A stretch of DNA of 64,000 bases, taken from contig NZ_JAELXT010000002.1 in the NCBI RefSeq assembly GCF_016427565.1, positions 62,001 to 126,000 on the forward strand. The letters run 5' to 3'. A program made the translations under genes and the position numbers. The stretch is from Microvirga splendida. GTDB lineage: Bacteria; Pseudomonadota; Alphaproteobacteria; Rhizobiales; Beijerinckiaceae. Numbering within the stretch: position 1 is the stretch's first letter; every line of letters starts with the position of its first letter. This document shows positions 4,149 to 62,797 of the stretch, one piece after another. The notes below the pieces were generated by a model. The model was not told the DNA's origin. It ran no database searches and saw only the letters and a list, made by a program, of their open reading frames with translations.

Positions 4149-4163
4149 GTTCCTGTTTTGTTC
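4149..4163 (+). promoter_or_regulatory. LexA (SOS) box, GTTC-N7-GTTC
   Basis: GTTCCTGTTTTGTTC is an exact match to the alphaproteobacterial LexA operator GTTC-N7-GTTC, with the usual T-rich spacer. It lies 43 bp before the start of the radical SAM gene and inside the divergent promoter region shared with the glycosyltransferase-like gene. The core has only eight fixed bases, so chance matches occur about twice per 64 kb. Position and spacer composition raise the likelihood. Confidence 0.7.
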
Positions 4164-4205
4164 CTAAACTTGGAGCATCCAGTCACAGATTCGCTCGAGG
4201 CCGCC

Positions 4206-5387
4206 ATGAGTGTTCGCGCCAAAGACCATGCCGGCGATCCCCTCCGCTCCAGGCCCGTGAAGCGCACGCCCCTGGAGGCGGCCGAGGCCGCCCGCCGCCG
4301 CATGGACGACCCGGCCTACCGGGTCGAAGTGGACCGCCGCCGGGGCCGCGGGGCAGCGGCCAACCCGTCGGGCCGCTACGAACCGGCCCAGCGCGAGGCC
4401 TTCGACGACGGCTGGGAGATCGACGAGGAGCTTCCGACCCTGCCCACCGAGGTGATCGTCGAGAAGGCGCGCACCATCATCACCCGCAACGACTCGCCCG
4501 ACATCCTGTTCGAGAAATCGATCAACCCCTATCGCGGCTGCGATCACGGCTGCTCCTATTGTTTTGCGCGGCCCACCCACGCCTATCAGGGCCTGTCCTC
4601 GGGCCTCGATTTCGAGACCAAGATCTTCGCCAAGCCCAATGCGGCGGAGCTTCTGGAGAAGGAGCTGCGGGGCTCGAAGTACCAGCCGGCTCCCATCGCG
4701 CTCGGCTCCAACACCGATCCCTACCAGCCGGTGGAGCGGCGCTTCCGCATCACGCGCTCCATTCTGGAGGTGCTGAACCGGACGAACCATCCTGTCGCCA
4801 TCGTGACCAAATCGGCCTTGGTCACCCGCGACATCGACATCCTGGGCCCCATGGCCGAACGGCAGCTCGCAAAGGTGGCGATCTCGGTCACGACCCTCGA
4901 CCCGAAGCTCGCCCGCCGCATGGAGCCCCGCGCAGCCACCCCGGCCAAGCGGCTGGAAACAATTCGTAAGCTCACCGAGGCCGGCATTCCCGTGACGGTG
5001 CTGGTCGCCCCCATCATTCCGGCGATCAACGATCACGAGATCGAGGCCATCCTGAAGGCCTGCGCGGAGGCCGGCGCCGGGGAAGCCGGCTACGTGCTCC
5101 TGCGCCTGCCGCACGACCTGAAGGACCTGATGCGCGACTGGCTCGTCGACCACTACCCGGACAAGCTCAACCACGTTTTCACCCTGCTGCAGGAGGCCCG
5201 CGGCGGCAAGGATTACGATGCGAACTGGAGCACCCGCCAATCCGGCATCGGTCCCTATGCCTGGATGCTCGGCCGGAGGTTCGAGACGGCGGCCGAGCGG
5301 CTCGGGCTCAACAAGCGCAGCCTTCGCCTGCGCACGGACCTGTTCAACGTGCCGCCGAAGGAGACGGGGCAGTTGAGCCTGTTTTGA
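4206..5387 (+). CDS. PA0069-family radical SAM protein (spore photoproduct lyase-like)
   Basis: A 393-residue radical SAM enzyme of the PA0069/Rv2578c family, distantly related to spore photoproduct lyase. The 4Fe-4S cluster motif CDHGCSYC (CX3CX2C) lies at about residues 112-119, preceded by the family-typical INPYRGC. The N-terminal 70 residues are basic and low in complexity. The C-terminus (residues 300-393) is also family-typical (YDANWSTRQSGIGPYAWMLG). The substrate is unknown. ATG 4206 is preferred over the in-frame codon at 4158, which falls inside the LexA box. The LexA box 43 bp upstream suggests DNA-damage induction, which would fit a DNA-repair role; this is inference. Confidence 0.9.
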   Translation: MSVRAKDHAGDPLRSRPVKRTPLEAAEAARRRMDDPAYRVEVDRRRGRGAAANPSGRYEPAQREAFDDGWEIDEELPTLPTEVIVEKARTIITRNDSPDILFEKSINPYRGCDHGCSYCFARPTHAYQGLSSGLDFETKIFAKPNAAELLEKELRGSKYQPAPIALGSNTDPYQPVERRFRITRSILEVLNRTNHPVAIVTKSALVTRDIDILGPMAERQLAKVAISVTTLDPKLARRMEPRAATPAKRLETIRKLTEAGIPVTVLVAPIIPAINDHEIEAILKACAEAGAGEAGYVLLRLPHDLKDLMRDWLVDHYPDKLNHVFTLLQEARGGKDYDANWSTRQSGIGPYAWMLGRRFETAAERLGLNKRSLRLRTDLFNVPPKETGQLSLF

Positions 5388-58059: not shown

Positions 58060-58111
58060 ACCAAGAAGCTCTCCTCGCCAACCTTGACCATGGCCTCATG
58101 CCTCCTATATT

Positions 58112-58126
58112 GTTCGCGTTTTGTTC
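58112..58126 (+). promoter_or_regulatory. LexA (SOS) box, GTTC-N7-GTTC
   Basis: GTTCGCGTTTTGTTC matches the alphaproteobacterial LexA operator and shares GTTTTGTTC with the box at 4149. It ends 26 bp before the ATG of the helix-turn-helix gene at 58153. Confidence 0.7.
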
Positions 58127-58152
58127 TAGTTTCTTGCGACGAGCCGATTGCC

Positions 58153-58758
58153 ATGACCATAGACGCCACCCCCTCCCCCTCGAGCCCCGACCAGCCTGCC
58201 ACCTCAGCCATCCGTGAGAAGCTGCCGCCGGAGCGGATCGCCCTCATGCGCGACTGGGTGGAATGCACCACCAAGTCCTTCAAACGCATCGGTGAGGCGC
58301 TCGGGGTCTCGGCCTCCACCGTGTCGCGCTATGCGGCGGAGGGCGAGTGGAAGCGTCCGCCGGGAGCGGCGCTCCCCTCCCGCCCGGCGCGGCCCAATCC
58401 GGCGCCGGAACGCCGGCGCAACCCCGTGCGCCCTGCGACGGGCGAGCGGCGCCAGGAGCTTACGGACAAGCTCTGGCGCCTCGCCGAGCGCCACGCGGAG
58501 GCGCTGGAGCACCAGCCCATCGCCCAGGCCCAGCGCGCCCTCCAGCCGCTCGCCCGCCTCACCCGGACGCTGGGCGAGATGGACAAGCACGCCCACCCGC
58601 CCTTAGCCCCAGGGCAATACGAGATCGACAACCAACCCCGCCGCAGCCTGCACGAGCTGCGCGACGAACTCGCCGTCCATCTGGAGCGCATCGAGCGCGA
58701 GGAGCGGGAGTATGATGAGCGCTATCGCTGGACGTTCGAGAATGGCGGGGGAATATGA
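58153..58758 (+). CDS. Helix-turn-helix protein behind a LexA box, function unknown
   Basis: A 201-residue protein I cannot name. After a Pro/Ser-rich start (TPSPSSPDQPA) there is a clear helix-turn-helix at about residues 40-72: RDWVECTTKSFKRIGEALGV, then SASTVSRYAAEGEWKRPPGA. It resembles the DNA-binding part of small terminase-like or resolvase-like regulators. A basic Pro/Arg linker (75-100) follows, then a helical charged C-terminus (LWRLAERHAEALEH, then LHELRDELAVHLERIEREER), probably a coiled coil for dimerisation. ATG 58153 is chosen because longer starts run into the LexA box and the palindromic repeat. It is probably induced by DNA damage (inference). Confidence 0.75.
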   Translation: MTIDATPSPSSPDQPATSAIREKLPPERIALMRDWVECTTKSFKRIGEALGVSASTVSRYAAEGEWKRPPGAALPSRPARPNPAPERRRNPVRPATGERRQELTDKLWRLAERHAEALEHQPIAQAQRALQPLARLTRTLGEMDKHAHPPLAPGQYEIDNQPRRSLHELRDELAVHLERIEREEREYDERYRWTFENGGGI

Positions 58759-62167: not shown

Positions 62168-62797
62168 GTGACTCGGAATCCAGAAAGACGCGCCGCCACA
62201 ACTCGCAACCTCATGATCACCGGCCTCACCGTCGCGGCCGTCGCCGGTTGGGGCGCCTATGCGTATTCGGCGCTCTCGTCCATGCAGCTCGAACAACGGC
62301 TGAACGGGCAAGCGGCCGCCCTTCAGGATTATCAGGCGCAGTTTCTGCAGCAGCGCCGGAAAGCCGAGGAGGGAGCGCGCGAGATCGCGAGGCTTCAGGA
62401 GCAGCTCGTGGCGGTGCGAGGCGACAACGAGCGTCTCGCTTTGAGCGCCAAGGAGACCGAGGCAACGCTTGCGACGGCCGAGGCACAACTGGCATCGCTC
62501 CAGAAGCTCCACGGGCCTCCGGCCCTCGGCAATGCGCCGGCCTTGCGCGGCATCACGCCCGTGCCCGCGAAGCAGGATATCCTGGTCGCGCAGGAGACGC
62601 TCACGCGGCTCGGATTCGGCGACCTCGAAGCCGATGGCGTCATGGGGCCGAGCACACGGCAGGCGATCGAGGCGTTTCAGCGGGTGGCTGGGCTGACCGT
62701 GACCGGCGAGCTCCACGGCCTGACGCTGCAATCCCTCATGAGATCCGCAAAAGTCGTCGCGGCGCAGAACGCGCGGGCCGAGCCGCTCCCCGAGTGA
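62168..62797 (+). CDS. Membrane-anchored peptidoglycan-binding domain protein
   Basis: A 209-residue protein with an N-terminal transmembrane anchor (about residues 15-35, NLMITGLTVAAVAGWGAYAY), a coiled coil of about 75 residues (QLEQRLNGQAAALQDYQAQF, continuing to ASLQKL), and a C-terminal peptidoglycan-binding-1 domain (QETLTRLGFGDLEADGVMGP, then STRQAIEAFQRVAGLTVTG). It may tether the cell wall to the inner membrane. Start is GTG 62168, with AAAGGA upstream. Function beyond wall binding is unknown. Confidence 0.87.
   Translation: MTRNPERRAATTRNLMITGLTVAAVAGWGAYAYSALSSMQLEQRLNGQAAALQDYQAQFLQQRRKAEEGAREIARLQEQLVAVRGDNERLALSAKETEATLATAEAQLASLQKLHGPPALGNAPALRGITPVPAKQDILVAQETLTRLGFGDLEADGVMGPSTRQAIEAFQRVAGLTVTGELHGLTLQSLMRSAKVVAAQNARAEPLPE

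Follow-up and report, generated by a model that had tools for sequence, protein, structure and literature searches.

A solo small-terminase homologue behind a conserved LexA-type box in Microvirga and its putative link to the host GTA

In the 64,000-nucleotide stretch of Microvirga splendida DNA analysed here (the window), a gene standing alone on the chromosome encodes a protein that is best read, from its sequence, as homologous to the small terminase (TerS) encoded by the RcGTA-type gene transfer agent (GTA) of Microvirga, RcGTA being the GTA of Rhodobacter capsulatus. We consider it moderately probable that this solo TerS homologue is controlled by LexA, engages the large terminase (TerL) of the host's own GTA and alters packaging. 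The elements that appear well founded in the sequence data are a promoter and box conserved as one unit, homology with GTA TerS, a tail common to both proteins, and a fixed locus without TerL. We infer that LexA would bind the box, that DNA damage would induce the gene, and that the solo protein would bind TerL and affect packaging.

Table 1. Positions of the features discussed in the text. Coordinates are those of the window unless a contig is named.
Feature	Position	Strand	Details and basis
Predicted promoter, solo gene	58084..58111	+	-35 TTGACC 58084-58089, 16-nt spacer, -10 TATATT 58106-58111; read from sequence
LexA-type box GTTCGCGTTTTGTTC	58112..58126	+	immediately 3' of -10; GTTCN7GT[T/A]C kept in 33/33 orthologues
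Solo small-terminase-like protein, 201 aa (P0001)	58153..58758 (incl. stop)	+	orthologues; profile match to GTA TerS; dN/dS
N-terminal HTH, residues 26-63	58228..58341	+	AlphaFold2 helices 26-38, 43-50, 54-63; HTH-only hhalign 99.4%
Helical hairpin, residues 96-145	58438..58587	+	AlphaFold2 helices 96-119, 123-145; hairpin-only hhalign 82.4%
C-terminal tail, residues 163-186	58639..58710	+	59% mean identity to Microvirga GTA TerS; model helix 166-196; tail-only hhalign 96.5%
Other LexA-type box of the window, GTTCCTGTTTTGTTC	4149..4163	+	ahead of PA0069-family radical SAM gene (from 4206)
GTA TerS of the same genome	G000:C2:35518-36159	minus	beside TerL; start codon uncertain

Promoter and box of the solo gene

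The pattern GTTCN7GTTC is the consensus LexA box of alphaproteobacteria. The box GTTCGCGTTTTGTTC has this form and abuts the predicted -10 element, with a gap of 26 nt between the box and the ATG of the solo gene. The first-pass annotation had placed a LexA-type box 26 bp ahead of a 201-residue reading frame, and the coordinates agree; its view of the box as the operator of a helix-turn-helix (HTH) gene is supported by the geometry and by the conservation in all 33 orthologues described below. A string shared by the two boxes of the window had also been pointed out. The 9-mer GTTTTGTTC is indeed found in both; it occurs exactly twice in the window, where 0.18 occurrences are expected, and none of 100 shuffles contained two. 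The other box, GTTCCTGTTTTGTTC, precedes a radical SAM gene that matches NF033668 with 561.6 bits (cut-off, 360) and putatively belongs to the same regulon as the solo gene, as part of a different system. This PA0069-family gene (4149-5387, box included) also weakly matches the spore photoproduct lyase model, below the cut-off. A third GTTCN7GTTC, on the minus strand of the window at 62291-62305, was discarded; it lies within an open reading frame and has no T-rich spacer.

The three exact GTTCN7GTTC sites in the window compare with 1.3 expected, and 14 of 100 shuffles held as many. Across the whole genome (5.2 Mb in 62 contigs) the pattern occurs 171 times, compared with 107 times for its reversed form, and the bare pattern is therefore weak evidence. 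The genome has 33 sites of the T-rich form GTTCN4TTTGTTC and none of its reversed control. Sixteen of these 33 boxes are copies of a dispersed element. Among the 30 T-rich boxes whose neighbours were inspected, the flanked genes include recA (PF00154), ssb (PF00436), a Y-family polymerase (PF00817), dnaB, an imuA-like gene (NCBIfam match below the cut-off) and two radical SAM genes, one of the PA0069 family and one matching TIGR03916. The strongest support for the box of the solo gene is its conservation across orthologues.

An orthologue of the solo gene is present in 33 of the 48 Microvirga genomes searched. A search of 37 genomes with the single protein gave 24 positives (including the genome of the window), and a profile search of 11 further genomes gave nine. 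When the 13 genomes that were negative with the single protein were searched again by profile, GTA TerS or other HTH genes were retrieved and no additional solo orthologue was found. The tally is by the 33 genomes and not by loci, because some loci that were named twice have identical sequences (e.g. L087/L169 and L104/L173). The survey of orthologues that the first-pass annotation had proposed is positive in every case, with the qualification that the second half of the box, GTTC in 24 genomes, reads GTAC in the other nine. The distance from the start of TTGAC to the box is 28 nt in 32 orthologues and 29 nt in one. As a background, the same loci contain 32 other exact GTTCN7GTTC sites in 305 kb on both strands. 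When the GTAC form is mapped on a tree of the orthologues (27 rows, 25 of them different, from 37 loci, 10 of which were missed by the strict pattern), it requires three changes, at least two of which are forced by well-supported branches and may be gains or losses.

The locus itself is also conserved. An EamA transporter gene lies upstream of the solo gene in 24 of the 25 named loci, and the contig of the 25th begins 1 kb upstream; the downstream neighbours differ between genomes. The chromosomal position beside the EamA gene is thus fixed in these 24 loci, unlike that of a mobile island. Across nine orthologue pairs, dN/dS ranges from 0.15 to 0.41. Two of the 33 orthologues look damaged, by an in-frame TAG (G031) and by a frameshift (G023), and in a further one (G026) the C terminus is altered. 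Alignment A1 omits four of the 24 loci L001-L024 (L010, L014, L019 and L021), whose readings are extended, partial, stop-containing or frameshifted. Extra partial or tandem copies of the solo gene were observed near the first in M. flocculans, M. arvi and M. terrestris (L094, L098 and L086, respectively).

The dispersed element mentioned above was examined in an alignment of 13 copies. GTTCN4TTTGTTC is directly followed by TTGAC, after which come a GGCTATA-like -10 and several hundred bases of GC-rich sequence that folds strongly. The genome of the window has 16 copies, including those at G000:C10:83215-83234 and G000:C3:66424-66443 (others are, e.g., in L061 and L050). The element was found in 39 of the 48 Microvirga genomes, copy numbers across the genomes ranging from 0 to 34, with none in the control; the median is 16 copies in solo-bearing and one in solo-less genomes, with kinship ignored. 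An Rfam search of five of its loci gave no match near the threshold. It is possibly an SOS-controlled repeated RNA or mobile element.

Relationship to small terminases

The first-pass annotation could not assign the protein, and searches with the single sequence against Pfam, PHROGs, NCBIfam and PDB sequences indeed gave weak or irrelevant matches only. The protein scores below the Pfam and NCBIfam cut-offs, with 18.1 bits for PF10668 (cut-off, 22) and weak sub-threshold matches to AsnC-type and sigma-70 region 4 models of Pfam; its PHROG small-terminase match (phrog_1206, E = 0.0022) is also weak. A Foldseek search of the model against PDB and BFVD gave no match at E ≤ 0.001, and an entry named "Small Terminase" in BFVD (rank 22, E = 0.23) was discounted as evidence.

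What gave the decisive lead was a further weak hit in the genome of the window, at G000:C2, with a large terminase gene immediately downstream of it. Small terminase genes are usually, though not obligatorily, located directly before TerL. Five of the six other weak single-protein matches with loci are also directly before TerL (L025, L026 and L028-L030, but not L027), four of these five being within Microvirga and one from another family. In an order-wide profile search, 18 of the 27 matches other than the window gene lie beside TerL, the GTA TerS of the same genome being counted. When the profile of the solo family was aligned with that of GTA TerS by hhalign, the probability was 99.7% (E = 1.2e-26), and it remained 99.5% without the tails (values for the separate parts are given in Table 1). 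Against the 15 rows of non-Microvirga TerS alone it was 99.6%. The reversed control gave 2.4%, and 30 column shuffles gave at most 0.5%. Because most TerS rows from other genera were found with the solo profile, the similarity is biased upward, but the adjacency to TerL is free of this bias. Both the profile alignments and the genes around the relatives thus point to GTA or phage small terminases, and the earlier suggestions of a regulator or a repair accessory are left unsupported. No match to TerL was found beside the solo gene in loci L001-L024 and L085-L109, and no relatives were found in phage, viral-contig and plasmid collections at the search sensitivity used.

Both the HTH and the charged tail noted in the first-pass annotation are real. 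The AlphaFold2 model, of moderate confidence (mean pLDDT 70, pTM 0.28), has an HTH, a hairpin and a long C-terminal helix, and the model of the GTA TerS from the same genome shows a similar order of elements (pLDDT 70.6, pTM 0.39). An N-terminal HTH DNA-binding domain is usual in phage TerS, and small terminases of phages and GTAs are further characterised by a helical hairpin or coiled coil in the centre and a segment for TerL binding at the C terminus. By analogy, residues 96-145 may form an oligomerisation hairpin, and the tail is a putative TerL-binding helix. In RcGTA gp1, the two-hybrid signal with TerL was lost when helix 3 was deleted, and the C-terminal helix binds TerL, according to the accessible text of PMC6854486.

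The mean identities between the solo proteins and Microvirga GTA TerS are 59% in the tail, 22% in the HTH and 12% in the hairpin; those with non-Microvirga TerS are 25%, 34% and 20%, respectively. These averages include one misframed Microvirga TerS row (L150), which makes the solo-TerS values slightly low. Within the solo family, mean identity is highest in the tail (75%), and the HTH has 65%. Because its HTH and hairpin are nearer to those of TerS from other genera, a simple recent duplication of the GTA TerS gene of its own genome does not explain the solo gene. To judge from these sequences, the body of the protein appears, if anything, nearer to TerS of other genera, and in its tail the protein is like TerS of its own genus, which would fit a local partner. 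By analogy with RcGTA, a common tail would imply a common TerL. Two other HTH proteins with an upstream LexA-type box were observed in genomes without a solo orthologue (L178 in G343 and L027 in G002); their HTH part is like that of the solo protein, and the TerS tail is absent.

The Microvirga GTA and the box at its promoter

In the genome of the window, TerS is followed by TerL, portal, prohead protease and major capsid genes, and then by genes for DUF2460, NlpC/P60 and a GTA_TIM/Rcc01698_C protein. Because of TerL, portal, protease, capsid, GTA_TIM and Rcc01698_C, we designated this cluster as an RcGTA-type GTA. The GTA TerL is present in all 33 solo-bearing genomes compared with 12 of the 15 solo-less ones (Fisher 0.026, with kinship ignored), which agrees with a TerL common to the solo protein and GTA TerS; the GTA is present and the solo gene absent in those 12.

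A related box, GTTCN7GTAC on the opposite strand, is located at the GTA promoter in 40 of 45 Microvirga clusters. It overlaps the -10 element of the promoter ahead of TerS, TTGACA-N17-TACAAA, with the same geometry in all 40. The remaining five promoters (G017, G335, G340, G338 and G002) have no GTTCN7GTAC within 350 bp of TerS, and the G335 and G340 genomes possess the solo gene. The exact GTTCN7GTTC, looked for on one strand, was found at none of 30 GTA TerS promoters, and some TerS loci have it on the opposite strand farther upstream without the TTT spacer. In 16 GTA stretches from outside the genus, the T-rich box was not found, and GTTCN7GT[T/A]C without TTT is present in six.

The GTAC form is one base off the LexA consensus, and the -10 element of the GTA promoter may itself require it. 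In G012 and G033, the sole two GTTCN4TTTGTAC sites of the genome are at the GTA promoter and the solo promoter, and in G000 and G022 the sole site is at the GTA promoter; the form stands at no other gene in these four genomes. Because their six sites are not enriched over the reversed control (eight), the argument rests on the place of the sites and not on their number.

An exact GTTCN7GTTC was also observed inside the GTA cluster (L110:7981-7995, corresponding to G000:C2:31981-31995), at the start codon of a small reading frame before the prohead protease. It is present in all 38 clusters in which portal and protease were both located (seven of the 45 were not assessable). In the sequences inspected it can be parsed as a string resembling a ribosome site, a spacer of fixed length, a start codon (ATG or GTG) and an AAC codon; because translation signals may explain it, we excluded it as evidence. 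In the leader between the GTA promoter and TerS (L110:12069-12230), a GC hairpin with its T run has the look of a terminator, and the segment separating the -35 and -10 elements of the GTA promoter holds an AGCGT/ACGCT inverted repeat. These features are reminiscent of the anti-termination design of the Caulobacter GTA, as far as the accessible description of that system goes.

Proposed role, rival explanations and known systems

In the mechanism that we favour, DNA damage would inactivate LexA, and the solo gene would be derepressed and its protein made. The C-terminal helix would bind the TerL that the host's GTA encodes, and the HTH, which is unlike that of GTA TerS, would present DNA to it and change the choice of DNA or the start of packaging. 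The outcome would be redirected or boosted packaging, and the mechanism suggests that DNA damage may alter whether, or what, GTA particles package. Several findings weigh against this reading: the solo gene lacks a neighbouring TerL, its protein stays below the Pfam and NCBIfam cut-offs with a weak PHROG match, the model is of moderate confidence and gave no significant Foldseek match, HTH and hairpin are nearer to TerS of other genera, nine orthologues have GTAC and two look damaged, and 12 genomes possess a GTA but no solo gene. A more specific version is conceivable but doubtful, in which damage swaps or supplements the GTA TerS and the different HTH turns non-specific packaging into site-chosen packaging. 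That the chosen sites are the dispersed LexA-box elements of many Microvirga genomes is pure speculation.

Much of the same evidence is consistent with an SOS-induced inhibitor derived from TerS, the tail of which would occupy TerL and block or delay GTA packaging during damage: the tails are alike and the HTHs divergent, the GTA promoter has a related operator, and the solo gene is confined to TerL-bearing genomes. A pure inhibitor, however, could do without an HTH of this degree of conservation (65% mean identity in the family), and we regard it as unlikely. It departs from our preferred reading chiefly in the sign of the effect on packaging, which sequence alone does not decide. The clear HTH, the sub-threshold AsnC-type and sigma-70 region 4 matches, and the isolated locus could instead indicate an SOS-induced transcription regulator derived from TerS, whose HTH would bind promoters with the tail as a leftover or a dimerising element. 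Conservation in the family, however, peaks in the tail (75%), and the tail specifically resembles TerS of the same genus, which makes a regulator distinctly unlikely.

The control of the gene might also be of another kind. If a different repressor, such as a RogA-like LexA homologue, reads the box, the gene would belong to the GTA regulon and not to the SOS response. The LexA-like RogA represses the activators of the Caulobacter GTA, according to the accessible text of PMC9632790, and GTTCN4TTTGTAC is common to the GTA promoters and nine of the 33 solo promoters and occurs nowhere else in the four genomes. Against this, 24 of the 33 solo boxes have GTTCN7GTTC, as at recA, and the box of the imuA-like gene of the same genome, GTTCATGTTTTGTTC, is identical to the solo box in four of the 33 genomes; the tree also requires the GTTC and GTAC forms to have interchanged at least twice, by gain or by loss. 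We consider this alternative quite improbable. A decaying phage remnant with an incidental SOS-controlled promoter would account for the two damaged copies, the altered C terminus in G026 and the partial extra copies in some genomes. It hardly agrees with the same EamA-side locus in 24 of the 25 named loci, the dN/dS of 0.15-0.41 and the maintained operator geometry, nor with the searches of phage, viral-contig and plasmid collections, which gave no relatives; already disfavoured, it is very improbable.

The preferred reading, a LexA-controlled solo TerS homologue acting on the host GTA, can be compared with several known systems. RcGTA gp1 resembles the solo protein in being helical with a conserved C-terminal helix, which in RcGTA is needed for TerL binding; it differs in having 107 residues, apparently no HTH, and a gene beside TerL, in contrast to the 201-residue, HTH-containing solo protein encoded alone behind a LexA-type box (PMC6854486, as far as its accessible text goes). 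The Microvirga GTA TerS is a profile homologue with a nearly identical tail, but its HTH (22%) and hairpin (12%) have low identity, and its gene adjoins TerL behind an opposite-strand GTTCN7GTAC and a leader hairpin. The closest working analogue is the TerS of SaPI, a LexA-controlled small terminase that uses the TerL of another element: in the accessible text of PMC5052747, TerS belongs to the LexA-controlled operon I and the protein engages TerL of the phage. Unlike the solo gene, which is chromosomally fixed and has the host's own GTA as its presumed partner, SaPI is mobile, an island that exploits a phage. The GTA cluster of Dinoroseobacter shibae has a LexA site with a GTTC motif, predicted in silico (PMC6473078, accessible part). 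The resemblance to Microvirga lies in an in silico LexA-type site on a GTA cluster. It belongs to a different bacterial order, and the accessible part of that source mentions no solo TerS; the box at the Microvirga GTA promoter is one base off the consensus.

The proposed reading bears on the purpose of GTAs and on the timing of their production, and the links between SOS and GTAs have so far been indirect or predicted in the open-access literature, to the extent of its accessible text; within the same bounds, no solo LexA-controlled TerS paired with a GTA has been described. A host gene for a second TerS, apparently LexA-controlled, and the LexA-like box at the GTA promoter would make these matters testable in one genus. 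If our reading is true, the device used by SaPI, a LexA-controlled TerS, would have a chromosomal counterpart.
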